Shown here piece by piece: positions 38,656-61,200 of a DNA stretch of 64,000 nucleotides (positions are counted from its first letter, which is position 1; each line of letters opens with the position of its first letter). The position numbers and the translations under genes are program-made. The DNA comes from Carallia brachiata. Taxonomy: Eukaryota > Streptophyta > Magnoliopsida > Malpighiales > Rhizophoraceae. The stretch is from positions 5,573,250-5,637,249 of the forward strand of contig JADCRB010000016.1 of the NCBI GenBank assembly GCA_021464245.1. Direction: 5' to 3'. The notes under the pieces are model-generated. The model did no database searches. It had not been told where the DNA came from and saw only the letters and a list, made by a program, of their open reading frames with translations.

Positions 38656-40686
38656 ATGGTAGCTCGCGATGGAGTTAATAGCAACCATCATGCTGACGAT
38701 GAACAAGGGATGCAGGCCATCTGGCCAACCATCCATAGCCAGGAGGCGACACTACAAAACCTTGGTCAGAGATTTGATCAATTGGAACGTAGATTGGAGG
38801 CTATCATCAATCGACTCGAAACTCTCCAATTGAGAGGTGCCAATAGGATCCAAAGAGACGAGAGCAATCATGTCGGAGATATTGCTCACAGTCAACCTAT
38901 GGCCTGACTAGTCTCTACCAATCCGATTAGACACCAGGCTTATACGGTAGATTCATGTGATAAGACAAACTCGCGCATGTGTTAGTCTTATGCGTCAGAT
39001 TCAGATGATGATGATGGAGATTTTGATGATTATGTGGAACCTAGGTATGAACATAAATGACCCTGGCATCCCGAGGGGCCAAACGAATTTTGGCTAAAGG
39101 TAGATATCCCTGTCTTTAATGGTTAATTAAATATTGAAAATTTTATAGATTGGTTAGCCAAAGTAGAAAGATTCTTTGACTATATGGAAATACTTGAGGA
39201 AAGAAAAATTAGATTGGTAGCCTGCTGGCTAAAAGGAGGAGCGTCTGCTTGGTGGGAATGAACAAAAGACCGAAAGAGAGAAGAAAGCAAAGCTCTGGTT
39301 AGAGATTGGTACAAAATGAAGCAACTTTTAAGGGGAGTGTTTCTTCCTCTAGATTATGAGTAGATCTTTTTCCAACAATATTAACATCGCGATCAAGGCA
39401 ACTGGATAGTCCAGAGTACTCAGCAGAATTTTTCAAATTGTCCAAGCGTAGCGACCTTGTGGAATCAAAAAGCCAACAAGTCTCTAGGTACCTAGGCAGA
39501 TTGAAGCCAGCAATCTGAGACACAATTGGAGTCAGATGCTCCTGGATATATTTGGAGCTAGGAATGTGGCTTTGAAAGCTGAGATAATGCTACAAGAAAA
39601 GAACAAAGCTAAATCTTCTCGTAAGTATTATTTTGACTCTAACAAATCTATTGAGAGAAAGAAAAACCTAAAGCTTTAGGCCAATCAAAGAAGGTGATAA
39701 CTGATAAATCTGTAAGGAAACAGTAGCTAGCTGAGAAAGTAGTTGGCCGCCATCTCAATCCTTATGAGAAGCCTATACTCAACAAGTGCTACAAGTGTAA
39801 CAAGATAGGTCACCGCTCTAATGATTGCCCACGACAAAAGGCGGTGAATATAATAGAGCAGGAAGGCGCAGTTGGAGAATAAGATGATGAAGTCTATTGT
39901 TGCCCAGATAGAGTATAAGACGAGTATGAAGATGAAAGATTTGTGTATGTGGTGAGGAAGTTGATGGTAGCTCCTAAGTAGGAGGATGACACTCAACGGA
40001 ATAAACTATTTTGTACCAAGTGCACAGTTAATAATACTCTGTTTGATTTGATTATTGTAATGGCAGCCAGGAAAATAATATTGGAAAAGAAACTATCAAA
40101 AAGTTGTAGCTACCAATAAAGAAGCATCTGAGTCCATACACCATTGGATGGACCAAAGTAGTTTGAGAAATTCGAGTGGCAGAATGATGCAAGATTCCTT
40201 TTCGATTGGGCAGTACAAAGACGAGGTCTATTGTGATGTCATAGACATGAATGCTTGTCACCTATTGCTCAGGCAGCCATGGCATTTTGATGTTGATGCT
40301 TAACACTCATGTAGGAAGAATGTCTACAAGCTCGAAAAGGATGGGGTAAAGGATATCTTGCTGCCTTTAAAAGGAGTGTCTTGAACCAAAACATCTCAAG
40401 TGCAGGGAAGAACCATTCTAACAGTTACTCATTCAGAAGTATACCTTGCTACCTATAAAAGAAGGATCTCAAACCAAGACATCTCAAGTGGAGGGGAGAA
40501 CCTTTCTAACAATCACTCATTCAGATCAAAAGATCAAGGCCGCTATCAAAGAATCGAAAGAAGTTCATGTGCTTGCGGTGAAAGGTGAAGTAACCAGTAG
40601 TCTGGAGATGAAAGTTCCAGATTCAGTTAAACAATTGCTAGAAGAATTCAATGAGATTGTACCAAAAGAGTTACCAGACAGGTTGT
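38656..40686 (+). pseudogene. Gypsy-1 gag, zinc knuckle and protease remnant
   Basis: Probable start at ATG 38656. An N-terminal coiled-coil-like part (EATLQNLGQRFDQLERRLEA) ends at a stop at 38905. The capsid part follows in the same region (IENFIDWLAKVERFFDYMEI, KGGASAWWE, about 39125-39260) with several stops. A CX2CX4HX4C zinc knuckle, CYKCNKIGHRSNDC, is intact at 39787-39828. The protease stretch near 40020-40080 (NNTLFDLIIV) has lost the catalytic Asp-Gly. It ends in LLEEFNEIVPKELPDRL, the pre-RT phrase, cut by Gypsy-2 at 40687. A direct repeat (CCTTTAAAAGGAG/CTATAAAAGAAGG with CAAGACATCTCAAG words) near 40370-40500 is a short internal duplication. Confidence 0.85.
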
Positions 40687-40687
40687 T

Positions 40688-41465
40688 TGTAAAGATAAAA
40701 AAAAATGAAATAAAAAGCCAAATGGTCGGCAATTGGCCGGTTCAATTTGGTCAGCCACCGGCCACCAACCCAATGGTTGGCGGCACAGTTGCAGGGATGA
40801 CCTATAAATAGGTCATTCCCTATCTCAGATAAATCAACTCATAAAGAAACAAAAACAAAACATAGAAACAAAATGACGTGAGGAAGTAAAAATTTGGAAA
40901 ACCAAGTTTTCCAAAACCTTTTCCTTACAATTTCGTATTTTAGGTGTATGATCTCTTGTCTCCATTCAGTTATATATTCTAGATCAAAAGTTTAAAATAT
41001 TTAATATACTCATTTCCAAGCATATTTTGGGTGTAGACTCTTTAATTGCCTCTGAGTAGGATCTGGTAAAGCAAAAATTTAAAATATTAAAATATTAAAA
41101 ATATGCCTGAGATTAACTCTCTACGACTTTTAGCAAAGTCAAATCAGCCCACTTGAAATCAAGCCTCTTTAGTCTTTAGTGGTATCAAGTCAGTCCAATC
41201 GAAATTAAGCCTTACTACAATCAAACCATCTACCTGAGATCTAACCTCAGCTCTCAGTAGAATTTATTCAGTTCAAGATAAAGCTGTGAAATTTATTTCT
41301 GTTAAAATCAGGCTCGTGCTACTCTTGATGGAATCACGAAAGAGAGCATTAATCGGAAGATCTTCACAGATATCGACCCCACGTGAATTTTAAATTTTTA
41401 TTTGTAATTTGTATTTGTATTTTCGAATCTAATTGTTTTAGGCTCAAAATTTATAGCCTCTTACA
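40688..41465 (+). repeat. Gypsy-2 5' LTR
   Basis: Starts TGTAAAGAT after the TTGTT flank and ends CTCTTACA. It contains GGCCGG/CCGGCC-rich inverted words near 40735-40770 and a TATA box inside a palindrome (40797-40816). I could not assign the primer site that follows. Confidence 0.88.
40797..40816 (+). promoter_or_regulatory. TATA box embedded in a palindrome (Gypsy-2 5' LTR)
   Basis: Arms ATGACCTA and TAGGTCAT flank TAAA. The partner LTR has ATGGCCTA and TAGGCCAT at 58054-58073. Likely core promoter. Confidence 0.65.
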
Positions 41466-41513
41466 AATTTCTGACAGGCCTGGTGAGACGTCTTTGCCTC
41501 CCATCTTCAGTTT

Positions 41514-41653
41514 CTTAAAAAAAAAAAACAACAAAAAAAGTTGAAGGAGAAAAAAAGAAAAAAAAAGAAAAGTCGAAAACAAGGAAAAAATACAAAAGAA
41601 GGAAAAAGACGAAAAAAAAAAAGAAAAAGAAAGAAAAAGGAAGAAAAATATTT
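41514..41653 (+). repeat. 140-nt polypurine stretch upstream of Gypsy-2 gag
   Basis: Almost pure A and G with few interruptions (AAAGAAAAAG-type words), between the primer-site region and the gag ATG at 41679. Strong strand asymmetry. It could be a leader-RNA feature or simple replication slippage. Confidence 0.7.
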
Positions 41654-41678
41654 TTAGCAGGTATGTAGCACACCAATT

Positions 41679-43426
41679 ATGCCAAAGAAGAGCACGACCA
41701 CTGCTACTAGTAAGGAAGTAATTGCTCTATTGTCGACATCAACTACCCTACCTGGGTATGCAGGTCTAGAAACTCGTGGAAGAATGTGATTTCTCGTCGT
41801 CCAAACATAGAAAAATATCAAAATGGAGAATATACGGCACATACAGCAACAAGATATCTTCCCTGACTCTCTCGTCAGACGAAGGATCGATCATCCACCC
41901 TAATCGAATTTGGAGGCAATGTGACAAAGCCCGTACAACATCAGAAGCTAACCTATTCTACATAAACAAACACGAAGAAATCGAAAGAGCCCTCTACCCT
42001 AGTCTTCTACGGAGCATCGTTTACCAACACTAACGACATTGCAGTATGATGACGAACACAATCAACACGGAAGAAAGGATCGCAAAACTATAAAACAGAA
42101 TTTTTCAGCTGATTAAAACTCTAGAGGAAAATGATAGCAAATCGCCAATCTCAAATAAAAGGCCCTAATTCAAGTCGATCCTGAAACCCGTGAAGAGCAA
42201 CCATATTCACCCAATTTCACTCCAAAAGCAATGCCAGCTGATGTCTTCATGACAGAAAAACAACCAAACAGTTCCACCCAGTTGCCACTTTTAAATTCTG
42301 TAGCCTCACTATCTGTCCAACAATTACAGGACATGATAGCTAATGCAATCCACTTACAACAAACTGTATCATTCACAAGATCACAAATGTACGTCAAACC
42401 ATACACGGGGCAGATTGAAAATCTCAGCATGCCTTTATGCTACCAATCGCCCAAATTTCAACAATTTGATGGACAAGGGGACCCTAAATAGCACATTACT
42501 TACCTCGTCGAGACTTGTAACAACACAAGAATTTGCGAAAATCTCTTGGTAAAACAGTTTGTTCGTTCACTTAGGGATACCACCTTCACCTGGTTCATAA
42601 ATCTTGAACTAGAATCAATTGACAGTTGAGAATAGTTGCAACAAGAGCTCCTCAACAGATTTTTCAGCACTCGGAGAATAGTAAGCATGATGAAACTTAT
42701 TAGCACCAAGCAAAGGAAAGGAGATCCCATTGTCAAATACATAAATAGATAGCACACTCTCAGCCTAGACTGCAAGGATTGTCTGACGGAGACTTTCGCG
42801 GTGGAAATGTGCATTCCGGGGATGCACTGAGAGCTGTTATACATCCTCCAAGGCATCAAATCTTCAACTTTCGAAGAACTAGCGACTTGCGCGCACATAT
42901 GGAGATAAGCATTTAGACCTCTGGGGCACGGTTCCCATCCAACTAAACCAGCATGGGGGCAAGAAAGAAGTTGAGAAGACTAACAACTCAGGAAAAGGTA
43001 AAGAAGTGATGATCGTCAACATTGCACTAGTAAAAGTTGGAGCCAAAGCAAAGGTAAACCCTCCAACGCCAACAAATTGGCCAAAACACCAACAAAGGCA
43101 GAGGGTGTCATTGCAAGAATTGGAGCAGAAGAAATATCCATCCTCAGACTTAGATGTCCCAGAAATTCTTGACCAACTCTTGGAGGTAAAGCTGATCAAA
43201 CTCTCAGAGCGCAACCAGCCCAATGAGGAAGATCGGGTAAATGATTTGAAATTCTGCAAGTATCACCGCATAGTCAGTCATTCAACTGAGAAGTATTTCC
43301 ATCTTAAAAGAGCTGATCATAAAACTAAAAAACCAAAATAAAATCATTTTGAACAAAGAAGATGTGACTTCGACCAACCAAACCACTATACCTTCGAACC
43401 CATCAGAAGAAGCGACATGCTGCAAG
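41679..43426 (+). pseudogene. Gypsy-2 gag (5' part, cut by copia C)
   Basis: ATG at 41679 (MPKKSTTTATSKEV). The conserved part runs from SVQQLQDMIANAIHLQQ (42321) through FQQFDGQGDPK (42456), VETCNN, LLVKQFVRSLRD (42545), QELLNRFFSTRR and RKGDPIVKYINR, to the C-terminal KFCKYHRIVSHSTEKYFHLK (about 43252-43311). This is gag of the Tat-type plant gypsy class. Several TAA/TAG codons at former Gln positions. Interrupted at 43427-43431 (GAAGA) by copia C; it resumes at 51231. Confidence 0.85.
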
Positions 43427-43431
43427 GAAGA

Positions 43432-44812
43432 TGTTGGTCCCTTGGGTGAAGCCTAGAGGGGGGTTAATAGGCTTCACAAAAGAAATCCTCAAATAAAATT
43501 TTTGCAAATGAATGTAAACAAGAGATTGAAAGAGATACAATACCGAATTTTACAAGGTTCACCAAATGGCTACGTCCTTGGTTTTCTCAACAATCCCTCT
43601 CGTGGAGATTCTTGAGAGTTCAACTGTAGGAGTGCCTTTTGGTGCACCAATCACCACCGTATAGTTTACAAGAAGACTCCACAAACACCTTTGCGCCTAC
43701 CTTCAAATCAGTTATTGCACAAGTCCCACTTGCCAATACCAATTTCCCCTTTTCTCTTGGGTTTTCCTTCTTGGACTTTAACCCTAACTCCTTACAAGAT
43801 GATCCTCACAAGTACCCATTGGGAGCTCTCACCCTATTCTCACAATGTATTACAATACAAATGAAATTTACTAGTTTCAATGCTAGTTTTACAATGGAAG
43901 CACTTAGAGCAAAAAAAGCCTTTTTCCTTGAGAGAGATTATACAATGCTTGAATATAACTTTCTTCACCTATCACATCAGTAAAAACACCTTCAAGTGAT
44001 GCTTAAGTAGCTGCAAGATAGGTAAGCAACTTGTTAGAGCCGTTGCCATGTGTTGCACATGCATGCTTTGTTGTTTTGCTCTTGACAACTTTGTATTTAT
44101 TCCCTTGTCTGACACCTTTTGGTAGAAGGGCTATAACTTGGTACAGACAACTTGAAAAATTGGAATTTCTTTTTCGTTATTTAGTAGACTGTTAGAGCTC
44201 TTTACCCACCAAATTTGACTATTTTTGAATGAGTATAGCATAGTCAAATAAATGTTGGAATAGAGACATTAAAGTTTCATTATACAGTCTGCACACGTTT
44301 TGTAGAACATTAATATCTTGCAGAAGAATTTGAATTTTGATGTTATTCTTTTTGCATTCATTAGTAGACAGAACAAGGAATCTACATACAAAATTACACA
44401 TTCAAATTCGTAGTGTGATCTTCTAGACAGCCGTTGCAATTTACTCTATTTGCACTGAAGGTTCTTGACAGCCTGCAACCTCTTGGTATAAAATTCATAA
44501 GTTTTTCTCTACGGCTCCAAAAATTGTACAACCAGTCTCGTATGAAACTAGACTTATAGTCCTGCAAAACTGTATATATTTTAGGCTCAAAATATTTCTC
44601 AATTGAGTGAGTTTGATACCTAGAATTTGTCCAAACAAATTTGCTCTTGTGCTGTCTTTCTAAGTTTTATACTTGAAGAACATAAAAATGAAATTCACTT
44701 GTACTTTTGTTAGATTAGTTCATAGCTCATCATCAAAACATTCATCATGAAAACATGAATTCAAACTTATAACAATTTCTTAATATATGCATGGGGTGTG
44801 AATTTTCCAACA
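43432..44812 (-). repeat. Copia C 3' LTR
   Basis: 1381 bp, TGTTGG to CCAACA in plus reading. It is shorter than its partner because of a deletion near 44661-44668 (a stretch present in the partner at about 51003-51085). A polypurine tract follows at 44813-44827. Confidence 0.93.
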
Positions 44813-45342
44813 ATCTCCCCCTTTTTGATGATGGCAAAACCTTTAAATTGATGCTTCCCCTTAATCTAAGCTTCCTCTATAAATGCTATTTCTTTTAACT
44901 CTCTCTTAATTTTCTCCCCCTTTTTGTCATCAATAAAGTGGTTGAAACAAAATATGTGAATGCTAACTTGGTTAAGAGATAGAGACTCCCCGTTAATGTA
45001 TGCATGTAGCACAAGTTCACATTTACAATTAGGCATATAAGTTATAACAACTTTGAGATATGGACCTTGTAGAGTACAAATGCAGCCACTAAGCTAGAGC
45101 AAAGAATGTACTAGATCTTACAAGATAATCTCTCAATTTTAAAAGGTTTCACTAAAGCAAAAATAGATTTGATGTTTTTGTGTCATGTGCAATGTTCATA
45201 GAAAATGGTTTTCAATGTATTTGCTTCATTAATTTGAAGTAATTTCATTGAAAGTTTGGCCATTTTGTTATGCCATAAGATGACAAGACATAATCACAAA
45301 CATTCATCCAAGATTAAGCAAATAAAGACATTCAAGCATATA

Positions 45343-45700
45343 CTAATACATGGGGTGTGACATGCTTAATTCTCTTCTTAGGTGACAAAATTGATCTTGA
45401 TGTAATGGCTTAGTGAAAATGTCTGCTACTTGATTTTTGGTATCTATAAATTCAAGCACAATATCACCTCTTCGAGTATGGTCTCTAATAAAATGATGTC
45501 TAATATCAATATGCTTTGTTCTAGAATGATAGATGGGATTTTTGGTCAAGTTTATTGCACTTGTGTTGTCACAGTTGATGGTAACCTCTTTCATGTTAAG
45601 ACAATAATCCATAAGCTGTTGACACATCCATAGAACTTGGGCACAACAACTATCGCAACATATTCGGCTTCCGTGGTAGATAGTGCTACACAATTGATCC
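45343..45700 (-). pseudogene. Copia C RNase H
   Basis: CCAQVLWMCQQLMDYCLNMK, CDNTSAINLTKN, RTKHIDIRHHFIR and ADIFTKPLHQDQF. The upstream part (TEAEYVA region) is damaged by a small deletion near 45650-45690 relative to copia B. Confidence 0.85.
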
Positions 45701-45819
45701 TAAAAAATGACAAGTCCCAGACGTGCTTTTTATATCAATCTTACAACCACCAAAGTCGACATCCAAAAAAGCATGTAACTTGAAGTTTGATTCTTTAGAA
45801 TACCATAATCCTAAAGTAT

Positions 45820-46571
45820 CTAAAAATTCTTTTTACTGCAACTAGATGAGATTCCTTTGGAGATGCTTGAAATATAGCACAAAGACAACCACTTGAGGAA
45901 GTCCCTCACATACTTTTCTTGATTGATGAAGGTTACATATTTGGTTTCTTTAACTTGAAGTCCCAACAAGAAGTTTAGTTCTCCCATCATACTCATCTCA
46001 AATTCACTTTGCATAAGCTTAGAAATTTTTTTTGCAAAGGTCATCATTAGTAGAACCAAATATAATATCGTCCACATATATTTGAACTACTAATATATCC
46101 TTTCCATTAATTTTGATGAATAAAGTAGGCAACCTTACCTCTTTGAAAGCCTTTCTCCAAAAGAAAATTGGAAAGCCTTTCATAGCAAGCTTTTGGGGCT
46201 TGTTTGAGTCCATATAAAGCCTTCTTAAGTTTAAAAACATGACGTGGAAATTTCGCATCCTCAAAATCGGGAGGTTGTTCAATATAAACTTCTTCATTTA
46301 TAAAGCCATTTAAAAAAGCACTTTTGACATCCATTTGATATAAAGTAAAATCCATGTAACAAGCAAATGCTATCAAAAGTATGATTGCTTCAAGTCTAGG
46401 AACCGAAGCATTAGTTTCATTATAATCTAGGCCTTCTTGTTGACAATAGCCTTGGGCTACTAATATTGCTTTATTTCTCACTATGGTTCCATCCTCATCT
46501 ATTTTATTTCTAAAGACCCATTTTGTTCCTATGATTGATTCAAATTGATTTAATTCTTCTTGCATGGCCAT
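45820..46571 (-). pseudogene. Copia C reverse transcriptase
   Basis: AMQEELNQFES, TKWVFRNKIDEDGTIVRNKA, MDFTLYQMDVKSAFLNGFIN, EEVYIEQPPDFEDAKFP (the Gln lost in copia B is kept here), LKKALYGLKQAPKACYERLS, IYVDDIIFGSTND in a second frame, and MMGELNFLLGLQVKETKY in a third. About 250 bp found in copia B between the RT end and RNase H is missing. Confidence 0.88.
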
Positions 46572-46768
46572 TATCCAATCACTATCTTAAAGGGCTTCAT
46601 CTATGTTTTTAGGTTCGATTTGAGAGATAAAATATGAAAACATACAAATATTATTAACACTTGAACGAGTTCTTACCCCATAGGAAGGGTCACCAAAGAT
46701 GGTATTTCCTTCCACATACCTTTTATCCTTTTTTCCAAGAGGTTCCCTTGCTCACAAGGTGGTTCTTA

Positions 46769-47925
46769 TTATTGAATTTCTTGTCTAACCACCTCATATG
46801 TAGTCTCTTGAGATATCTCTTCATTAGAATGTAGAAACTCCACATCTTCATCTTCTTCATCCAAGTAGTAACCTCCATGTTTACCTATATCATTAACAAA
46901 TTCTTTTTCCTCTTTTGGAGAAGGATTAGAATCATAAAAAATAACATGAATTGACTCTTCAACTACCAAAGTTCTCTTGTTAAAAACTTTATAAGCCTTA
47001 GATGTGATAGAGTAATCGAAGAAAATAACTTCATCAATCTTGGCATCAAATTTTCCAATAAAGCCTTTTACATTGTTAAAAACATGACATTTATAACCAA
47101 AAGATGAAAATAACTGATATTAAGCTTTCTTCCTCTAAATAATTCATATGGAGTTTTGTTTAAAAAAGGACGAATTATAGCCTTGGCCCAAAAATATTTA
47201 GGTAAGGTATTTTCACAAAGCATAATCATTGCCATTTCCTCTAAGGTCCTATTTTTCCTTTCCACAACACCATTTTGTTAGGGAGTTTTAGGAGCCGAAA
47301 AATTGTGAGATACCCCAACTTTTTCTCAAAATTGTTACAAGCCAAGGTTTTCAAACTCCTTACCATGGTCACTCCTTATGCTTATGATCTTCATCCCTTT
47401 TTCATTTTGAATCTTTCGACCAGAATCAATGAAGGCATTCACGACTTCACTCTTACATGCAAGAAAGAATACCCAAGTAAATCTAGAATAGTCATCAACA
47501 ATCACAAGACCATATTGTTTTCCACCCAAACGTTTAGTTCTAGTAGGACCAAACAAATCAATATGAAGCAATTCTAAAATTTTTAAAGTGGAAAAACAAT
47601 ATTTTGCTTTGAAAGAAGTTTTTATTTGCTTACCCTTAGCACATGCATCACACAACTTATTCTTTTCATACTTAAGTTTCGGCAAACCTCTCACTAAATC
47701 AAGCTTAGATAATTTTGAAATGATATTCATGTTAGTATGTCCAAGCTTTCTATGCCAAATCCAAGGTTCTTCTTCCTTTAAAGAAACAAAACATCCTCCA
47801 AATGTGACACATCCTCCATCCTTGCTTTTTAGTGTGGAGAAAAATGATACTTCTCCGGTCATATGCCTAGCACATTCACTATCAAGGTACCAAATGGCAT
47901 CTTCTTTAAAATATGTTGCTTTCAA
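46769..47925 (-). pseudogene. Copia C protease and integrase
   Basis: IWYLDSECARHMTG: the protease DSG reads DSE here. A deletion then joins VTFGG directly to CFVSLKEEEPWIWHRKLGHT. The integrase HHCC (LCDACAKGKQ) and core (LLHIDLFGPTR, IRSDHGKEFEN) lie at 47335-47800. The segment with ERKNRTL is in another frame at 47068-47265. The tail VVEESIHVIFYDSNPSP follows at 46900-46969. Several frame breaks. Confidence 0.87.
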
Positions 47926-47968
47926 TCACTTTTGTACCTACAAAACAAGATGTAGAATATTTTGGTAC

Positions 47969-49722
47969 CTATTTCTTTTTGGGTCCTTCAATGTTATAAC
48001 AATTATTCTTCTTCATTGAATCTTTTACTATCCATACTTGTTGGAATTTCCTAGGCTTTGTCCAAGCTTTAGAAGATGACACATAATTTTTAATGTAGGA
48101 CTTGTTAGGGTCATTAGGTCTTCTAAGTCTACAATTATGAGATTTGTGTCTTTTTTTATGACAATAAAAACATGATACAACATTTTTCTTTTCCTTTATG
48201 GGATTAGACTTGTTTTTAACAAGGTAGCCTAAACTGGATTTGTGAAAAATTTTCTTTTGAAAAGATAACATCTCATCTAATTTTTTGCTCCCTAATATGA
48301 ATTTTAAAAAGGATTTTTCCAAATTTGAATTTTTCTAAATTTTGAATTCTTTTCTTTAAGATCCTCTACTTCTTTTTTTAAAGTAAGATGTAAATTTTCT
48401 TTGATGTTAGGGGCCTCTCTTAATGTTGCAAGCTCTTATTTAACTAAATTTAACTCACCACAAGTTGATTTATGAGCTATTTTAATCTTTTCTAGTTCTT
48501 CTTTTAAGAGATTATTTTTCAAGACAACTTCATCTTTCTCTAGAAAAAGTTTCTCACATGTTTTATTTTGCTCTTTATATTGTTTATATTTCCTTTTAAA
48601 TGTGATCAATAACTCATCAAAATCTTCTCTAAGTTCTTCATAGAAAGGAAGATCTATTACCTCATTGTGACTTTCATCATCTTCCTCAAGGCCATGAGTG
48701 CCATGTATAATACTTGCTCTTTCTAATCTTCATCATCACTTTCACCCCATCTTACAAGAAATGCTTTCTTACCTTTTTTACCTTTCTTTTTTTTTTAGAT
48801 TGGGACAATATACCTTGAAGTGTCTGGGTTGGTTGCATTCAAAACAAAAAAGCCCTTCTTCTTCTTAGCTTTTGTTGGACACTTCTTTCTTGAAGTTCCT
48901 TCTTCTTTTGGGATATTTCATCATCTTCTTGAACCTTTTGACAAAAAGAGCAAGTTCTTCATCATCAATGCTTGAATCACTTTCAACGTCACTTTCATCA
49001 TCCTTTTGAGGTTTCAAAGAGTCTTGGCTTTAGCTTTGAGTGCTACATGTTTTGAGGATGATTCTCCTTGTGGTAATGCACTTCTCCTTTTGAGTTTGAT
49101 CTCATGAGTCATCAAAGACCCAACCAACTCTTCCATGGTTAGCTCCTCCACGTTGTGAGTTTCTTCAATGGAATTAATTTTCATTTCGTATTCCTCATTC
49201 ATCGAATTCATTAATTTCTACACAATTTCACCATTTCCAAACACTTTGCCAAGATCAGTTAGTCCATTAGCAATAATCATAAGTATATCATACACACTTT
49301 TAACCGACTCATTTGGTCTCATAGTGAAAAATTCAAATTCTGCCAAGTTTAACTTTTCTAACTTTTAATGTCCCTTCATTTGAGAGACACAACATATCTC
49401 AAATTTCTTTAGCAATTTTATAATGTTTGATGGTGTTATATTCACTTCTAGCTATAAAATTTTTTAAGTAATAATATGCTCTTTCATCTATTTGGCTTTT
49501 CTTAAAGTCCTCTTCATCCCATTTTTCTATTGGTTTTTCTCTCAAGGTTTTCACTCCCTTATCATCAACAACTTCTTCCTTAGGCACATATGGTCCATCT
49601 ACTATACTTAACCAAACTCTCATCCCCTTAGATTTAAGATAACTTTCCATATGATCTTTATATTATTGAAAATCACTACCATCAAAGAAAGGTCTCCGAT
49701 TTTCATTAGATGAGGATTCCAT
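47969..49722 (-). pseudogene. Copia C gag with two zinc knuckles
   Basis: Start ATG 49720-49722. The capsid-like part is at 49650-49399 and on to 49211 in several frames. Next comes the additional segment 49043-48702 with a knuckle of CX2CX4HX4C type (CFECNQPRHFKVYC, near 48800-48845) and basic tails. The acidic DLPFYEELR segment follows, then coiled-coil-like sequence, and the second knuckle CFYCHKKRHKSHNC near 48130-48185 within the open frame 48322-47969. Frameshifts throughout. Confidence 0.85.
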
Positions 49723-49764
49723 GGGGATCCCTGAAGGATGTTAAGCCTTACAAGTGAGGTTAAA

Positions 49765-49775
49765 CTTTGATACCA
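49765..49775 (-). other. Copia C primer binding site (mutated)
   Basis: TGGTATCAAAG on the minus strand, two bases from the 5' LTR; one G-to-A change from the element A site. Confidence 0.85.
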
Positions 49776-49777
49776 AA

Positions 49778-51225
49778 TGTTGGTCCCTCGGGTGAAGCCT
49801 AGAGGGGGGTGAATAGCCTTCACAAAAGAAATCCTCCAATAAAATTTTTGCAAATGAATGTAAACAAGAGATTGAAAGAGATACAATATCGAATTTTACA
49901 AGGTTTACCAAATAGCTATGTCTTTGGTCTTCTCAACAATCCCTCTCGTGGAAATTCTTGAGAGTTCAACTATAAGGATGCCTTTTGGTGCACCAATCAC
50001 CACTATATAGTTTACAAGAAGACTCTGCAAACACCTTTGGCCTGCTTTCAAATCGGTTATTGCACAAGTCCCACTTGCCAACACCAATTTCCCTTTTTTT
50101 TTTGGGTTTTCCTTCTTGGAGTTCAACCCTAACTCTTGACAAGATGATCCTCACAAGTCCCACTTGGGAGCTCTCACCTATTCTCACAATGTGTTACAAT
50201 ACAAATGAAATTTACTAGCTTGAATGCTAGTTTTACAATGGAAGCACTTAGAGCAAAGAAAGCATTTTTCTTTGAAAGAGATTATACAATGCTTGAAAAT
50301 AACTTTCTTCACTTCTTATATCAGTAAAAACACCTTCAAGTGATGTTTAAGTAGCTACAAGATAGGTTAGCAACTTGTTAAAGTCGTTGCCATAGGTTCA
50401 CATGCATGCTTTATTGTTTGCCTCTTGACAGCTTTGCATTAATTCTGTTGTCTGACACCTTCTGGTAGAACGACTATAACTTTGTTCAGACAACTTGAAA
50501 AATTGCGATTTCTTTTTTTATTATTTAGTAGACTATCAGAGCTCTTTACCCACCAAATTTGACTATTTTTGAATGTGTATAGCATAGTCAAATAAATGTT
50601 GGAATAGAGACATTAAAGTTTCATTAGACAGTCCGTACACTTTTAGTAGAATGTTAATATCTTGGAAAAGACTTTGAATTTGATGCGATTATTTTTGCAT
50701 TGCTTACTAGACAGAACAAGGAATCTACACACAAAATTTCGTATTCAAATTCATTGTGTGCTCTTCTAGGCAGCCATTGCAATTTACTCTATGTGCACTG
50801 AAGGTTCCTGACAACTTGCATCCTCTTGGTATAAAATTCATAAGTTTTTCTCTACGGCTCCAAAAATTGCACGACCAATCTCGTTTGAAATTATACTTAT
50901 AGTCTTGTAAAACTATATTATTTTAGCCCCAAAATATTTCTCAATTGAGTGAGCTTGATACCTGAAATTTGCCCAAACAGTTTTGCTCTTGTGCTGTCTT
51001 TCTAAGATAGTTGCTTAATAAGGCCAATTTGATCTTTCTCTTCCTTGCACATGTGAGATGGCATATGTAAGCCTCTTTGTCTTGAACCTAAATTGTATAC
51101 TTGAAGAACATACAAATGAAATTCACTTGTACTTTTGTTAGATTGGTTCATAACTCATCATCAAAACATGAATTCACACTTATAACAATTTCTTAATATA
51201 TGCATGGCGTGTGAATTTTCCAACA
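49778..51225 (-). repeat. Copia C 5' LTR
   Basis: 1448 bp, TGTTGG to CCAACA in plus reading, pairing with 43432-44812. Confidence 0.93.
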
Positions 51226-51230
51226 GAAGA

Positions 51231-52460: not shown

Positions 52461-52559
52461 GCGTTGAATAGTCGAAACTGATAACCTAATGCGCGTGCCA
52501 TTACCATCGCCACCAAGTAGGAGAGACTCAGTCAAGTAAAGAAGGGGAAGTCAAATCCT

Positions 52560-53990
52560 CTACATTTCACGTCACAATTAGTGAGGAAGCTAAATCTGAC
52601 TCATCAGACGATGAAGTAAAGAGGCTTCTCCGAAACTCGAAGATGGTGATCAAGCCACCATTGATGAACTCAAGGAGGTCAATCTTGTTCCCAGAAGATC
52701 CCCGACCTGCATTTGTGAGTGCCTTACTCACACCAGAAGAGGAGAAAAAATACGTCCAAGCATTAAGTCAATACAAGGATGTATTCACATGGAGTTACAA
52801 AGAAATGCCTGGACTTGACCCGAAGATTGTAATGCACCGTTTAACAGTAAAGAAGGGTGTTTGTCCAATTAAGCAACGACAATGACTACTCTGCCATGAG
52901 CTTATTCTACGAATTGAGGGAGAAGTCAACAAGCTAATCAATGCTGGCTTCATCCGGGAAGTCACCTATCCAACGTTGATAGCAAATATAGTCCTAGTGA
53001 GAAAGAAGAATGAACAACTAAGGGTTTGTGTCGACTTCAAAGACCTTAATCAGGTCTGCCCAAAAGATGACTTTCCGTTGCCCATAACAAAAATCATTGT
53101 CCATGCAACTATTGGCCACAAAGCATTATCCCTCATGGATGGTTCTTCAAGTTACAACCAAATTAGGATGGCACCAGAAGATGAGGAATTGACGGCATTC
53201 TGCATGCCAAAGGAATATACTACTACAAAGTCATGTCATTTGGGCTAAAGAATACTGGCACCACTTACCAGCATGTCACGCAAAAGATTTTCGACAACAT
53301 GCTACACAAAACTGTAGAATGCTATGTCGATGACCTAGCGGTAAAGATTAAGGAGCGTGAAGATCATCTAAATGACCTCAATGTGGTGTTTGAAAGGCTT
53401 CGCAAGCATCAGCTTAGGATAAACCCTCTCAAATGTGCATTTGGTCTCATATCAGGAAAGTTTCTTAGATTTGTGGTACGTCATCGTGGCATTGAAGTTG
53501 ATCAGTCAACGACTAAGGCAATTTAGAAGATGCCTGAACCTAAAAATCTTTATGAGCTATGAAGTCTACAAGGAAAAACTGGCCTACATTCGTCGTTTCA
53601 ACTCAAACTTAGTTGGGAGGTGTCAACCTTTCCACCGATTGATGAAAAAATATGCCAACTTCGAGTGGACGAAGCTTGTAGCAAAGCCTTCGAAAGTATA
53701 CCTTTCTAATCCACCAGTCCTAGGTGCTCCAATTCAAGGGAAACTACTGACTCTCTACATCGTAACACAAGAAAGATCTTTAGGAGCTTTGCTGGCACAG
53801 GAGAATGAGCAAGGAAAGGAAGTTTCCCTATACTATCTGATCAAAAAATTAAACGGTCCAGAGTTGAACTACTCGCCCATCGAAAAGATATCTCCGGTAC
53901 TCTTCTTTGCCATTGATAAGCTGAAGCACTACATGCAAGCTCACACGATTTGCCTCATTGCTAGCACCTATCCTAGCAAATATATCTTGT
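52560..53990 (+). pseudogene. Gypsy-2 reverse transcriptase and first RNase H
   Basis: FTWSYKEMPGLDPKIVMHRL, then INAGFIREVTYPTLIANIVL, VCVDFKDLNQVCPKDDFPLP (about 53023-53085), LMDGSSSYNQIRMAPED, and the catalytic YVDD at 53323-53334. The connection domain and a first RNase H (LGAPIQGKLLTLYIVTQERS, SPIEKISPVLFFAIDKLKHY) follow, where the catalytic Asp position is Thr. That fits the degenerate RNase H reported for Tat elements. Frameshifts near 53220 and 53520 and one TGA at 52883 break it. Confidence 0.88.
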
Positions 53991-54174
53991 CTAGACAGTC
54001 TTATAGGATGACTTGCTAAGTGGATAGTAATACTACAAAGTTACAATATTGCATACGACCCTCAAAGGGTAATCAAAGGGCAAGCTTTAGCTGATTTTTT
54101 TGTGGATCATCGTACCCTGTCTAATTGAAAGTTTACAAATGATCTTCCAAATAAAAAAGTCGTTTTATATTGAG

Positions 54175-54600
54175 ACATTGCCACCATGGGCAATGTTCTT
54201 TGACGGTACAGCGAGACGTGACAGTGCTGGTGCCGATGTAGTATTTGCCACTCCCCAACAATAAATATTACCATATACTATCATCTTTAACGAATTGTGC
54301 TCAAATAGTGTCGTCGAGTACCAAGCATTAATCAATGGTCTCCAAATGACTATTGACATGAAGATTCCAATGATAGAAGTTTATGGAGATTCTCAGCTCA
54401 TCATCAATCAACTTACTGGGTTGTATGATGTAAAGAAATAAGATCTTCCACCTTACTATCGACACTCTCGACAACTGATGAATGAATTTGAGAGCGTCAC
54501 CTTAGAGCATGCTCCTTATAGAGAAAAGTCTCAGGCAGACGCGTTGGCTTATCTGGCTACCTCTCTCGCAAAGTCGAAAATCCAAGCTATAATTATTACT
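54175..54600 (+). pseudogene. Gypsy-2 second (additional) RNase H
   Basis: WAMFFDGTARRDSAGADVVF (about 54188-54247), VEYQALINGLQMTIDMKIP, IEVYGDSQLIINQLTG and SQADALAYLAT. The D, E, D and D catalytic positions are recognisable. Its place between the first RNase H and integrase marks a Tat-type element. Only a few stops. Confidence 0.85.
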
Positions 54601-54879
54601 GTATGTCAGAAGTGGATCGTGCCAACGAATGATGAAAGAAAGTAAAATAGATAATCTGTCTCTATGTGTCTTACTGAAAACGATGATTGGTGTCAACCAA
54701 TCATTGACCACCTATAGCATGGAAATTTACCTGAAGATCGAAATCACAAGAATGCTTTGTATCGTAGACCTTTTGATGGAGTTTACTTCGTTGTCTGGGC
54801 AATAAAGAGGCAAAACAAGCTCTTGTAGAAGCACATTCTAGCATCTGTAGCGAACATTAATCGGACCTAAGTTGCACTT

Positions 54880-55885
54880 CCAACTCAAAAGGATAGGACA
54901 CTACTAGCCAATTTTGGTACGTGATGCATTGGAATTTGCCAAAACTTGTCAAACATGGCAATTTTATGCAAATTACATACATCAACTATCAAAGCCACTA
55001 CATCCAACTATTTCGTCCTGACCCTTTGAAGCTTGGGGACTTGATTTTGTAGGCCCTCTGCTGAAGTCATCCTCAAGTCATCTTTATATTCTTGCAACAA
55101 CAGATTACTTCTCAAAATAAGCCAAAGCTATTCCACTTAGAGAAGTACAAAAGGAACATGTTGTCAATTTTATCTGAATTCATCTAATCTATCATTATAG
55201 GGTTCCTCAATTCATCATCACTGATAACGGCAAGTAGTTCTACAGCAGTTTGATGGATAGCTCTGCAAAATGTTCAAGTTCAAAAAATACAAGTCATCGA
55301 TGTACAACGCCTCGGCCAATGGCTTAGCAGAAGCATTTAAATACCTTGTGCACCTTGTTGCGAAAAGTAGTCTCCAAATCCAAAAGAGATTGACATGATA
55401 GAATTCCTAAGACCTTATGGGCATATCCCACAACTTATCGGACTCCAACACAGGCGACATCGTATGCACTTGCATATGGTGTCGAAGCAATACTACCGTT
55501 AGAAACGCAAATCCCATCTCTTCGTATGGCTATTCTGGAAGCCCTCACACAGGAAGAAAATCCCCGACTGCGTTTGGATGAGTTAAAAGCCCTTGATGAG
55601 AAAAGACTCCAAGCAGAACAGTAACTTGAGTGCTACCAAGGTCGACTTACTAATGCATTCAACTGCATAGTTTGCCTACGATAATTCCAAGCTGGTGATC
55701 TTGTTCTTGTAGTACGACAACCCATCAACTTGAAGCACTGACCTGGTGACAAGCTCATTTCCAAATGGGACGAGTCATACTTAGTACAAGAAGCTTATGC
55801 CCATAACGCTTACATGCTGTCAGACCAATAAGGTGTCCAAATTGGCTTGATCAACAGTAAATTTCTAAAGCATTATTATGTATAG
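54880..55885 (+). pseudogene. Gypsy-2 integrase, end of pol
   Basis: AKTCQTWQFY (zinc-binding end), FEAWGLDFVGPLLKSSSSHL (about 55025-55085), TDYFSK, FIITDNGK (about 55215), then a decayed middle part with the Glu region. AYPTTYRTPTQATSYALAYG, the C-terminal FQAGDLVLV and the final FLKHYYV follow, with stop TAG 55883-55885. The usual GPR/KP-type C-terminal domain, no chromodomain. Several stops at former Gln codons. Confidence 0.85.
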
Positions 55886-56443
55886 ATATGTAAAAAAAAA
55901 AAAAAAAAACAAATTTCAAAGAAAAAAAGAAAAGGAAAGAAGAAAAATTAAAAAAAAAATTTTGAAGCACAAAGCCTAAAATCCAAGTCGAGAGCCCAAA
56001 TCTAGAGCCTAAGTCCAAACCAGAGCCCAAAACCCAATTCCAAAACCCTAGTTCAAATCCAATTCCCAAAAAACTCCGGCCCAAATCCAAACTTCAACTT
56101 GAAAACCCAAGTCCGAATCCAAAGGCTAAAAAAGTCGAGCCCAAACTTGAACCCGAAAACCCAAATCCAAATTCAAAACCCAAAACCCAAGTCTAACGCC
56201 CAAATCCAAATTCAAATCTAAAACCCAAAAACCAAAATCAAAATCTATTCTAAAACTCCTAGCTTGCATGAGTATAAATTGTGAGCGGCTCAAAATTCAG
56301 TCCAAAACTCTTGACCCGTATGAGTATAAACTGTGAACAACCCAAAAATATAAAAGTGATTGAGGGTTTGAGTCTAAATCATTGCTTTATTCTCAACTCT
56401 CCTTCACTGCATATCAAACTTTTGCTCCTTTTCAGCAACAAAA
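55886..56443 (+). repeat. Purine-rich and AACCC-type degenerate repeats after Gypsy-2 pol
   Basis: A-rich run (55888-55968), then irregular repeats of CCCAAATCCAA/AAACCCAAGTCC words (about 55970-56245), then a stretch ending in a pyrimidine tract and CAG at about 56434, just before the WOX-like start. No coding similarity. Confidence 0.65.
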
Positions 56444-57114
56444 ATGGAACTAGCTGTAGGACGTCAGAACAGAAAAAAAAGATAGGTCACCCTACATTAG
56501 ATGGCACCCAGCTTCGGCATAACTACAAATCTTGGAGGAGGTCTTCTGCAACAATACTATTCCTAATACATCACAGCTCTCCCAACTTGTTTCACGACTA
56601 CAGTTGTACAGAGTAGTTGAAAAAAAAAATGTGTATTTCTAGTTTTAGAACTAGAGAAATAGGGAGAGATCAGCACAAAGAGCTACTATTTCTATAGTAA
56701 AACCTATTTATCCCACCACTGTTGTTCCTGTGATGGATCTCACCAATGTCGCTTTGTCCTCAAATGAAGTTGCAGCTCCAAGCTCTACTATTATAGTGGT
56801 CCCTCAAGGCAATTTTGACCAAAGCTATAGCTAGATGCAATGCATAAAATAGTTTTGGAGGTTTTTATTCCTTATCATACAGAGCCTCAAGCTCTAACTA
56901 GGGGATCATCCCTTATGGGCAGTTCAATTCAGAAGGAAATTTTGCACCAGGAGGGATCTATTCTAGCAAGACTTTGTCTCTCTTTCTTGAATACGCCGGT
57001 GACGTCAATTGACAAGAAGGTTCCAGTAGCACTGACGTAACCAGCCTGTCAAACGAGGACTTGATTGACCTAAAGCTATGCCTCGAGCCCCACAAGGTCG
57101 ACCGACAAAAATAA
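56444..57114 (+). pseudogene. WUSCHEL-like homeobox (WOX-like) extra gene of Gypsy-2
   Basis: Likely start ATG 56444, 8 bases after a CTCCTTTTCAG acceptor-like site. A frame change lies in the A-run at 56472-56480. The homeodomain at 56499-56684 reads RWHPASA, stop, LQILEEVFCNNTIPNTSQLS, QLVSRLQLYRVVEKKNVYF, then a recognition helix with stops at the positions where WOX proteins have W and Q, and ends RNRERSAQRA. All these stops fit C-to-T or G-to-A changes. VMDLTNVALSS follows in frame (56730). After a second frame change comes KTLSLFLEYAGDVN (56968-57009, WUS-box-like), then IDLKLCLEP (57064-57090, EAR-like), stop TAA 57112-57114. The same order as in 15800-16429 supports a shared ancestral protein. 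Same strand as pol. Family call from motifs only. Confidence 0.72.
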
Positions 57115-57927
57115 GGTGCAACGACTTCTATAGCACTGCCTTGACTTTTGCAATACGTGTTGGCCATTGCCTCATTTGTCTCTTATGGAAGAAAGAGATG
57201 TAAAGGGACCCCCATCTGATTCAGCATATCCTTCTTTGACTTTTGCAAAAAAAAAAAAAAAGTAGCTTTTATTGTGCATATATTTCTTGTATTCTCAAAT
57301 CACAAAACTCACCCTTTAGCTTTTCTTTCTCTCTGAAGAAAGAAGACAATTAGTCCCTGTGCTTTCCTTTTCAGGAAATCCTTCAATCAAGGAGTTGGAG
57401 ACACAGAAGTTAGAAAGAAAACGAGTCAAGAGATCTTTGCAGCTCAACCTCTAACGCCTTTATGATCGATAAAGTTTCAACTGCTCTCCTTAGTTTACAC
57501 TTATCACAACGTGCAGAAAAGTTGTGATCATTCTCATAGGTTCACAGATGCGACGAGAGATTGAGAAGTTCCAACTACTCTCTTTAAGTCACGATATATA
57601 GAGGAATCATAACGACAACTCATCTCTCTATAAGTTGGCCTTGTAATTCTATGGTACTAGACCCTTTCTATGGGGAGGTTTAAGTTCTTTGTCTACTAGA
57701 TCATCCTTATTGGAACCATGAAACTTCAATTTTTATATTAGTTGGAGGGATGACATCCACAAAGGCATATCAAGTTCTATAGAAGGCCAACAGTAGCCAG
57801 GCTAGTTGGAGTTAAAGACTTGAAAATTCAATTTTCGTCAAGACATCTCAAGTTTCAAGCTGGACTTCAAGACTCGGTTCAGATCACATCTCCAGGGTTC
57901 TTCCTCACCAAGCCTTGATGTGGGGGT
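57115..57927 (+). other. Gypsy-2 3' untranslated region and polypurine tract
   Basis: No coding similarity. The first ~70 bp (GTTGGCCATTGCCTCATTTGTCTC) weakly resemble the sequence after the copia A WOX-like frame (16480-16500). The polypurine tract TGATGTGGGGGTATT abuts the LTR at 57931. Confidence 0.6.
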
Positions 57928-57930
57928 ATT

Positions 57931-58717
57931 TGTAAAGATCAAAAAAAAAAAAAAAAAGAAATGAAAGTCCAAATGGTCGGCAATTGGCCGGTGAAAGTTC
58001 AATATGGCCGGTCACCGGCCACCAACCCAATGGTTGGTGGCACAATGGCAGGGATGGCCTATAAATAGGCCATTCCTTGTCTCAAACAAATCAACTTCCA
58101 AGGAAACAAAAACAAACACATAAACAAAGTGAGGCGAGGAAGTAAAAATTTGGAAAACCAAGTTTTCCAAAAGATTTTCCTTACGATTTCGTATTTTAGG
58201 CATATGATCTATTGTCACCATTGGGTTAAATATTCCAGATCAAAAGCCTAAAATATTTGATATAGTTATTTTCAAGCATATTTTGGGTGTATACTCTCTG
58301 ATTGCCCTTGAGTAGAATCTACTAGAGCAAAAATTTGAAATATTAAAATATTAAAAATCTATCTGAGATTAACCCCATACGGCCCTAAACAAAGTCAAAT
58401 CAGCCCATCTAAGATCAAGCCCCTACAGCCCTCAGTGAAATCAAGTTAGTCTAAGCGAAAGTAAGCCTCACTACAGTCCAAGTATCTACCTCAGATCTTG
58501 CCTCAGCTCTCAACAAAATTTATTCAGTTCAAGATAAAGTTGTGGAATTTATTTCTGTTAAGATCAGGCTCGCGCAGCTTTACGGAATCACGAAGGAGCA
58601 TTAATCGAAGGATCTACACAGAGATTGACCCCACATGAACTTTAAATCTTTATTCGTAATTTGTATTCGTATTTTCGAGTCTAACTATTTTAGGCTCAAA
58701 ATTTACAACGTCTTGCA
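57931..58717 (+). repeat. Gypsy-2 3' LTR
   Basis: 787 bp, TGTAAAGATC to GTCTTGCA, pairing with 40688-41465. Palindromic TATA at 58054-58073. Confidence 0.9.
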
Positions 58718-58722
58718 TTGCC

Positions 58723-60188
58723 ACCAATGCGTGACATACAATACCAGATTAGTTTGGTCGCTGGTGCCACTCTTCCTAATCTACCACACTACTAGATAAG
58801 TTCTAAAGAGAGTGAGATCTTAAGGAAGAAGGTAGAAGAGCTGATGCAAAAAGGGCATATCAAAGAGAGTATGAGCCCATTTGCTGTACTAGCCTTGCTA
58901 ATCCCGAAAAAAGATGACAATTGGTGGATGTGTGTTAATAGCAGGGCAATAAACAAGATCACCATTGGGTACAAATTTCCAATTCCCAGACTGGATGATA
59001 TGCTAGACCAGCTTGATGGATCCAAGGTGTTCTCAAAGATTGATCTTCAAAGTGGCTATCATCAGATCAGTATTAGACCTGGCGACAAGTGAAAGACTGC
59101 ATTCAAGATTCGGGATGTTCTTTATGAATGGCTAGTTATGCCATTTAGTCTCTCTAGTGCTCCTAGCACCTTTAGGAAGTTGATGAATTAGGCACTGAAA
59201 CCTTTTATTGGGAAATTTGTTGTTATATATTTTGATGATATTCTTATCTATAGTCGATCAATAAAAGATCATATTTCACACTTGAGGGAGGTATTAGTGG
59301 TGCTGTAGGAGAATAAACTATATGTGAATTTGACGAACTGTAGCTTTATGACTGAAAAATTACTCTTCCTGGGGTACATAGTTAGTTTTGATGGCATTCA
59401 GGTTGAAGAGGAGAATATGCGAGCAATTTGAGATTAGCCTACTCTCAAAACTGTAGGCGATGTGCAGAGTTTCCATGACTTTGCAACCTTTTTATTGAAG
59501 GTTCGTCTACAACTTCAGTACTATTATGGCACCCATTACCGAGTGCCTTAAGAAGGGCAAGTTCTAGTGGGGAGATGAAGAAGAGCAGCGGTTTGCCCTT
59601 ATCAAAGAAAAGTTATGTACCGCTCTAGTGTTAGCTCTCCCTAGCTTTGACAAGCTGTTTGAAGTTGAATGTGATGCCAGCAGAGTTGGAGTTTGTGTTG
59701 TGATTTTCCAAGAAAAAAGGCCAGTCATTTATTTCAGTGAAAAGTTTAGTGAAGCCCAAAAGATGTGGTCTACTTATGACAAGGAGTTTTATATTGTTGT
59801 GAGAGTCTTAAAGCATTGGGAACATTACCTGATAGGCTGTGAGTTCATCTTGTACTCGAATCATCGAGCCTTGAAGTATCTCCACAGCCAGAAGCAAGTC
59901 AACAGTGACATACATGCTAGGTGGTCCACTTTCCTACAAAAGTTTCCTTTCAAGCTGTTTCATAAGGCGGGCCAACAAAACAAGGTTGCTAATGCCTTAA
60001 GTCAGAGAGCATCTTTGTTGATAACATTGACCAATGAGATAGTAGGCTTTGAAACTCTCCGTGAATTATATGAGCATGATGAAGACTTCCAAACTATTTG
60101 GGAGAAGTGGGTTCAAAAGCAACCTATAGATGATTTCCATATCTATGATGACTATCTTATGCGTGGAAATCAGCTCTGTGTTCCCTGA
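58723..60188 (+). pseudogene. Gypsy-1 reverse transcriptase and RNase H
   Basis: Resumes as [40 protein letters not shown], a decayed [40 protein letters not shown] and catalytic YFDDILIYS (59228-59254). The connection region is frameshifted near 59440-59620. The RNase H is open at 59628-60188 ([61 protein letters not shown]). Stops at 58793, 59090 and 59191. Confidence 0.9.
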
Positions 60189-61200
60189 TCTTCATTGAGA
60201 GAGAAGATTATTCATAATTTACATGGAGGTGGTCTTGCAAGTCATCTTAGACGATACAAGACAATTGTTGCTGTTGAGAAATAGTACTATTGGCCACAGC
60301 TGAAGAGGGATATTCGTAAATTTGTCTAGTGATTTTATACTTGCTAGACAGCTAAGTGCCAATCACAAAACTTTCAGCTTTACATGCCTTTACCTGTTCC
60401 AGAAAATATTTGGGAAAACCTGTCCATATATTTTATTTTGGGCTTACTCTGTACCCAACACGGTATAGATTCTGTGTTTATTGTTGTTGACAGGTTTCCA
60501 AGATAAGCCATTTCATACCTTGTAAGAAGACCTTTGATGCTTCCAGTATAGCCCGGTTGTTCTTTAAGGAGATTGTGTGCCTACATGGAGTGCCCAAGTC
60601 CATTACATCTGACCGTGATACCAAGTTTCTTAGTCATTTTAGAATCACTCTGTGGAAACTGTTTGATTCATTCTTAAAGTTCAATAGTACAGCTCATCCA
60701 CAGACTGATGGTTAGACAAAGTCACTAAACAAACCCTAGGCAACCTCATTCGAAGCATTTGTGGAGACAAACCAAAGCACTGGGACTTTGCCATAGCTCA
60801 AGCAAAGTTTGCCTATAATAGTGCAGTTCACAGTGCTATAGGGAAGTCTCCTTTCTCTATTGTTTACACTAAATGTCTGCAACATGCTTTGGATTTGGTC
60901 AAGCTGCTTCGCATTCCAGGCCTTAGCATTGCAACTGAGAATCTTGCAGAATAGGTGCAGTCAGTCCAAGCTGAGGTGAAAAAGAAGTTGGAGATTGCCA
61001 ATGAGAAGTACAAGAAAGCTGCAGACAAGCATCGAAGGAGCCATATCTTCCAAAAAGGTAATATGGTGATCGTGTTCCTTCGTAATGAGCGGTTTCCAGT
61101 TGGATCCTACAATAAGCTGCATTATAAGAAGTATGGTCCTTATCAAGTCCTAAAGAAGATTAATGACAATGCCTATGTGATTGATTTACCCAATGAGTAG
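60189..61200 (+). pseudogene. Gypsy-1 integrase
   Basis: Zinc-binding HGGGLASHLRRYKTIVAVEK (60222 on), YYWPQLKRDIRKFV and a damaged CX2C. Core pieces in three frames: FIVVDRFPR (about 60478), [26 protein letters not shown] (60696-60713) and [20 protein letters not shown]. The C-terminus [20 protein letters not shown] ends at a TAG at 61198-61200 near the gypsy pol end. An extended tail (TFNVADIYPFY) continues in frame. No chromodomain seen. Confidence 0.87.

Follow-up and report, generated by a model that had tools for sequence, protein, structure and literature searches.

A WUSCHEL (WUS)-like homeobox gene was found inside a Tat-like Ty3/gypsy retrotransposon in the window (the whole stretch of 64,000 nucleotides that was analysed), and a near-identical young set of such a gene is spread over the same genome. 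The copy in the window is a defunct member of the element family. We favour the explanation that a Tat-like element captured WUS, that the young copies are borne by LTR elements, and that the encoded protein works and benefits the element. Taken as a whole, we would give this explanation a probability of about 0.7. The capture and the recent spread of the gene are its most certain steps.

The element in the window

The Tat-like element spans approximately 40687-58713 on the + strand, amid the nested transposable elements of the window (Table 1). Across 785 aligned sites, which take in a few flank bases, its two LTRs shared 84.6% identity, and the K2P distance was 0.177. With plant substitution rates of 1.3e-8 or 7e-9 per site per year, the element would be roughly 7 or 13 million years old. 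The element was inserted in a second gypsy element, the frame of which breaks at ...VPKELPDRL and resumes at PPMRDIQYQ.... A target-site duplication was not clean by eye. The element context is supported by the LTR pair, by the pol between the two LTRs and by the target gypsy frame, which flanks the element left and right. A host-derived gene lies between paired LTRs in the window (40687-58713), and the pol-less copies described below are flanked by LTR pieces.

Table 1. Features of the Tat-like element, its WUS-like gene and its surroundings in the window
Feature	Position	Strand	Remarks
Target, left half: frame of another gypsy element (...VPKELPDRL)	40599..40686	+	
5′ LTR	40687..41467	+	Limits by eye; pairs with 57927-58713
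Leader and decayed gag-side region	41468..43430	+	Same stretch adjoins LTR pieces in pol-less relatives
Nested younger Copia-type element	43431..51225	-	Type by eye; sits inside the Tat-like element, outside the finding proper
Decayed pol: RT, RNase H, second RNase H (RVT_3) and integrase pieces	52490..55621	+	Pfam
Purine/pyrimidine-biased repeat array	55966..56355	+	TRF rows 56150-56228 and 56238-56336; directly upstream of the WUS-like gene
Decayed WUSCHEL-type homeodomain	56499..56684	+	Frame of 56442; four stops
WUS-box-like TLSLF	56971..56985	+	Frame of 56440
EAR-like DLKLCLEP	57067..57090	+	Frame of 56440
3′ stretch, gene to LTR	57131..57926	+	Closed by a PPT-like, G-rich run, as judged by eye
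3′ LTR	57927..58713	+	Limits by eye
Target, right half of the same gypsy element	58714..60954	+	Frames resembling RT, RNase H and integrase, as judged by eye

The pol domains come in the order RT, RNase H, second archaeal-type RNase H (RVT_3) and integrase. A second RNase H marks the Tat lineage, and the element can be classed as Tat-like from this domain and the domain order. In Pfam searches of the window pol, RT_RNaseH_2 exceeded the curated cut-off (8.3e-11), and RVT_1 (5.5e-6) and RVT_3 (9.5e-4) were both under it. The pol of a relative, L023, exceeded the curated cut-offs for both RVT_3 (3.6e-16) and Integrase_H2C2 (1.6e-7). The window pol pieces 52490-52882 and 55394-55621, each searched alone, had no Pfam match. 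On the gag side, the leader region contained frames of 55-152 codons, and the single 110-aa piece that was searched against Pfam gave no match. The LTRs of the Copia-type element are about 1.4 kb long; these repeats (43431-44812 and 49777-51225) shared 89.5% identity across 1400 sites, and a Copia-like frame was present at 47335-47925 on the - strand.

The stretch between the gene and the 3′ LTR had neither a coding signal nor a codon-position signal, and it is common to the relatives as one unit (the 3′ block). A repeat comparable to the array ahead of the window gene precedes the gene in other copies too. The GGGTTTTGG-type array ahead of the WUS-like gene was about 800-1000 bases long in L011 and L021.

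The WUS-like gene in the window

The initial annotation, made from the letters alone, had described motifs in WOX order between integrase and the 3′ LTR on the pol strand. We located all of them where it had placed them. Four homeodomain motifs, all on the + strand like pol, share the frame of 56442: RWHPASA (56499-56519), LQILEEVF (56523-56546), NVYF (56628-56639) and RNRERSAQRA (56655-56684). Its description of the frame as decayed was also borne out. One stop lies ahead of LQILEE and three lie within the recognition helix, and the WUS-box-like and EAR-like motifs fall in a different frame from the homeodomain. Two loop residues of the homeodomain are missing from the window copy.

The Pfam search proposed there gave a divided answer. 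The homeodomain piece of the window reached E = 9.6e-4 and 19.4 bits, under the curated cut-off of 22.9, whereas the corresponding piece of a young copy in the same genome (L041) reached 7.3e-13 and 48.6 bits and exceeded it. The window piece alone is therefore weak, and the gene is identified as a WOX gene because its relatives in the same genome score well. The low score of the window piece is what would favour a chance resemblance in decayed DNA. However, L041 matched WUS in the PDB with E = 9e-19, a profile of five old copies did so with E = 2e-13, and many further copies were scored in the genome. We ruled out chance resemblance on these two matches and consider it scarcely credible. The relatives score as WUS and the young copy encodes the same protein family; together with the LTR pair and the pol pieces, they uphold the claim of a WOX gene in a Tat-like gypsy element.

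Identity of the element-borne gene

In the PDB searches, WUS ranked best and STENOFOLIA second for a single old copy (L008), for the five-copy profile and for L041. The values for L008 were E = 4.9e-9 with Arabidopsis WUS (6ry3) and 6.5e-8 with STENOFOLIA. L041 aligned with the homeodomain of Arabidopsis WUS free of gaps, and 31 of 62 residues were identical. According to passages of PMC7203112, an additional residue where helix 1 ends (Y54) is specific to WUS within the WOX family, R38, Q89, N90 and R94 are the base readers, W39 anchors the N-terminal arm, and K82, N83 and Y86 form a further contact cluster. By alignment, L041 keeps the WUS-specific extra residue, but with H in place of Y54, and it keeps R38, W39, K82, N83, Y86, Q89, N90 and R94. 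Most of the old copies have NVYF where L041 and WUS have NVFY.

The C-terminal motifs could be followed in the old copies. Among five aligned old copies, the WUS-box read TLPLF in two, TLSLF in two and ALPLF in one, and the next residue was P in two of them. The full TLxLFP was seen in a minority of the old copies (L016, L027 and L035); most others had TLPLF or TLSLF with a different next residue. Four of the five aligned copies reached the EAR-like part, which read LELRL (twice), LELYL and LELQL. A C-terminal LxLxL was found in old copies and, as LKLCL, in the window, and was broken in L035. As for names, among the 120 listed of 746 relatives, 52 were called WUSCHEL, WUSCHEL-like or WUSCHEL ortholog. 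None of these 120 was named another WOX, and the remainder were hypothetical, generic homeobox or unnamed proteins and one misnamed protein.

A phylogeny with WOX proteins, which the initial annotation had also proposed, bore on the identity in part. The homeodomain tree had 39 rows and 63 columns; eight of its other-WOX rows were Arabidopsis sequences, and rows P0006 and P0009, truncated to 27 residues, carry no weight. The old and young element genes came together with two proteins, P0001 and P0011, apart from plant WUS and other WOX. The support for this element group was 91/81, under the star of the tool, and the group fell outside the WUS clade. The tree itself does not place the gene within WUS. 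For that placement we relied on the hit list as well as on the motifs and the WUS-specific residue, by which the captured gene was most likely WUS itself.

The grouping with P0001 and P0011 hints that the element clade extends beyond this genome. P0001 is an intact protein of 201 residues from a 1094-base ENA contig, with TLPLFPVH and LELRL, and is about 35% identical to an old copy. P0011, which comes from an ENA contig of 1303 bases, has 314 residues with a WUS-type homeodomain and two EAR-like motifs. The proteins on these two short contigs are possible relatives of the element gene. A scan of viral contigs (query A3) gave 47 pattern matches and no confirmed relatives.

Old copies in the genome

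For each genome search reported here, the best 40 or 150 of 796, 1348, 1188 or 1616 candidates were scored, so the counts are lower bounds and the candidates as such are unconfirmed. A DNA search with the window gene gave at least 41 matches from 796 candidates, the window's own included, and the others were 70-78% identical to the window gene. Altogether, 47 old copies were located in 32 genomic regions and the window, and all were decayed.

Upstream sequence of at least 4.5 kb was available for 34 of the 47. In four of these (the window, L010, L023 and L025), most of pol lay upstream at similar spacing, with an integrase piece 692-865 bases ahead of the gene match. Among the remaining 30, one had an integrase at that spacing, two had isolated fragments and 27 had no pol match. 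One further copy, with less than 4.5 kb of upstream sequence, had an integrase 845 bases upstream. The arrangement seen in the window thus recurs in the element family, with most of pol at similar spacing in four of the 47 copies. The claim that an ancestor of the element had captured a WOX gene stands in that the gene is a recurrent part of the family; the moment and mechanism of the capture are what we infer.

In three copies lacking pol (L022, L026 and L027), the leader, the gene and the 3′ block followed one another, with LTR pieces at either end. By this structure, the pol-less copies are internal deletion derivatives that retained the WUS-like gene. A tandem cluster of host WOX genes was also considered for the old copies; we gave this idea up because the copies examined (14 loci) have LTR, leader or pol pieces beside them.

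None of the 47 copies had an intact gene, and in 46 of them the longest open stretch was shorter than 600 bases of the match. L035, open throughout with 243 codons, was considered as an intact copy and rejected: the first half of its homeodomain is out of frame, and it matched neither WUS in the PDB nor the Pfam Homeodomain. By itself, then, an open frame is little proof of an intact gene.

Old WUS-bearing units were also seen in dense clusters on C58, C130 and C132, a few kb apart and in both orientations (L011, L012, L016, L018, L020 and L021), with extra LTR fragments (window 58279-58450) between the units. Some clustered units were local duplications: L026 had two copies 4239 bases apart and L016 had blocks that were 91-94% identical. 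The flanks of L004, L005, L007 and L008 carried long repetitive frames, such as LLPSHLLYSYGQGVCF in L004, a coding-like minisatellite beside the units.

A young, near-identical set

A search of the genome with the Pfam homeodomain gave 1348 candidates, and a block of near-equal scores stood out among the best 150, which were scored. We tabulated 103 of these 150 rows, namely stretches of about 183 bases with at most 52.5 bits, and left out the other 47. Scores of 49.4-49.6 bits were shared by 81 of the 103 tabulated rows. The open frame was exactly 229 in 21 of the 103, and 52 of the 95 rows that scored from 49 to 50.6 bits had one of at least 220. A part of the young homeodomain matches had far shorter open frames (170, 135 and 115).

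L041 (C1:1547972-1548350) has 125 codons without a stop, from ahead of MEPVAEPQ... to past the homeodomain. When its 379 bases were searched against the genome, 1188 candidates were obtained, and the best 40, which were scored, were all at least 99% identical over the 379 bases. Among these 40, 21 were fully identical to L041, its own place included, and they lay on 17 contigs. None of the old copies located above belonged to this set; the best one was 79% identical to L041 over 137 bases. The near-identity of the scored young copies points to a recent burst of the young form of the gene.

A search with the old C-terminal half gave 1616 candidates. Among the best 150, which were scored, nine were free of stops, the query's own place included, and the identical young copies were not among the 150. 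At C1:8588326-8588904, the WUS-box/EAR half was matched 33 bases downstream of a homeodomain match of 47.8 bits and in the same frame. The homeodomain match had an open frame of 227 and one TAG, and the copy contains stops. The in-frame pair ties the WUS-box/EAR half to a homeodomain that scores close to the young set. Presumably, LTR elements carry the young copies too, and both C-terminal motifs persist in them.

Selection on the gene

Codon tests were made on the old copies after six of the 47, with less than 600 bases of the gene, had been left out; 41 were aligned and 34, pairwise less than 85% identical, were used. No excess of third-position changes was found among the 34, neither in the whole gene (p = 0.20) nor in the homeodomain (p = 0.56) or the C-terminus (p = 0.69). 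The middle part of the gene gave p = 0.04, uncorrected. An internal-branch test of codon positions in the old copies gave p = 0.22, with counts swamped by homoplasy. Between L041 and the 34 old copies, third positions differed slightly more often, with 0.305, 0.284 and 0.347 at positions 1, 2 and 3 (p = 0.08).

The frequency of stops in the old copies was 3.3% in the true frame, 3.2% in one other frame and 5.2% in the third. By C-to-T or G-to-A changes, 150 of the 238 in-frame stops could be derived from the commonest codon of the column, as expected for methylated dead copies. On internal branches, the gene had 1.13 changes per site and the 3′ block 1.84; on end branches, the values were 3.40 and 3.81. 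The lower value of the gene on internal branches may be an alignment effect. As the tests for coding constraint are weak, we argue for function from the open frames of the young copies and the kept contact residues, not from dN/dS.

How the gene may have spread

WUS is the master gene of shoot stem cells. It recruits co-repressors through its WUS-box and EAR motif. Retrotransposons are inherited only through jumps in cells of the gamete lineage, which in plants means shoot stem cells. Long ago, a Tat-like Ty3/gypsy element would have taken up the coding sequence of host WUS between its integrase and its 3′ LTR. Its young descendants would ride on LTR elements with the WUS-box and EAR motifs retained. 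Their protein would be made, would bind TGAA-type sites and would repress through the two motifs by recruiting co-repressors. The element would gain if the expressing cells were pushed into, or held in, a stem-cell-like state and new insertions reached gamete-forming lineages. The gain of the element from its WUS gene is the least certain step, and we regard it as doubtful. Unlikely, in our estimate, is the whole account of a selfish retrotransposon that uses its own working WUS for the stem-cell state, an account that would take in the old uptake, the lineages in other plants, the survival of pol-less forms and the recent burst.

Much of the same evidence would fit a gene that does nothing for the stem-cell state. 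The WUS sequence may have been transduced once and copied since then only through its place in a stretch needed in cis (gene, 3′ block and LTR), with no benefit to the element. The pol-less copies, in which the gene is retained alongside LTR pieces and a 3′ block that is non-coding, would agree with this, as would the non-significant codon-position tests of the whole gene. However, many of the young homeodomain matches have long open frames, L041 keeps R38, Q89, N90 and R94 as well as the extra residue, and P0001, which is putatively on an element, is intact with both C-terminal motifs. We consider such a passenger possible, somewhat short of an even chance. The WUS protein of the element might instead bind its own LTR or 3′ block and control transcription of the element rather than of the host. 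The gene and the LTR pieces remain linked in pol-less copies, and homeodomain proteins bind short common motifs, both of which would suit regulation of this kind, but nothing specific points that way and it seems to us quite improbable. An element that carries a master regulator of stem cells, with its young form near-identical many times over, makes it directly testable whether the stem-cell niche is manipulated by plant mobile DNA.

Relation to known systems

The amplification of WOX genes by LTR elements is not new, as there is a precedent in Vigna (PMC10714607). According to this 2023 meeting report, which relates work of K. Naito, WOX copies are numerous in V. marina and V. riukiuensis and exceed 1000 in the latter; most of them sit between LTRs that are identical and have target-site duplications (PMC10714607). 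The likeness to our case lies in an amplified WOX gene, with more than 1000 copies in V. riukiuensis (PMC10714607) and 1188 candidates here. Given this likeness in kind and scale, the present finding may simply be the known case, in one of these Vigna species or a close relative, which we judge a little less likely than not. In its passages on Vigna, no WOX clade, motifs or element lineage are named (PMC10714607), whereas the gene here resembles WUS, motifs like the WUS-box and EAR are present, and old copies have a Tat-like pol. It was the only account of LTR-borne WOX that we found in the open PubMed Central literature; for the WUS identity, the Tat-like pol-bearing ancestors and the wider clade, no account was found there. 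Passages in two other papers concern transposable elements near WOX genes, not capture (PMC5501002, PMC6482515). What the present case adds is the identity of the gene as WUS, together with the old copies that bear pol and the possible relatives on two short contigs. Mobile copies of this kind can inflate genome-wide counts of WOX genes.

Among the Tat elements, Ogre, Grande and Retand have a second RNase H and, after integrase but ahead of the 3′ LTR, a further coding stretch, and the present element resembles them in both features. To our knowledge, the extra open reading frames of Tat elements have no cellular homologue except a transposon-related domain, whereas the extra stretch here is a WUS gene. 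Steinbauerova et al. reportedly described, in 2011, extra open reading frames in Tat and a LOGL4-like one in Athila. The Athila case is likewise a gypsy element with a host gene linked to shoot meristems, but that gene is for a cytokinin-activating enzyme, and the one here is for a transcription factor in a Tat-like element.

The element gene shares with Arabidopsis WUS (6ry3) a homeodomain with the extra residue and the base readers, and the old copies have the WUS-box- and EAR-like motifs. Unlike Arabidopsis WUS, it is multicopy and element-borne, and half of the homeodomain residues differ. The open frame of 229 in many young matches compares with 269-301 residues in the WUS rows P0002, P0103, P0110 and P0120.

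Several short WUSCHEL-like proteins of 142-249 aa were noticed in Rosa chinensis and R. rugosa (P0006-P0009 and P0012-P0014), one of them with 20 member sequences. Judged by sequence, these may represent WUS copies that are mobile or have expanded. The short rose proteins share NVYFWF, where NVFYWF would stand, with the old copies of the element.
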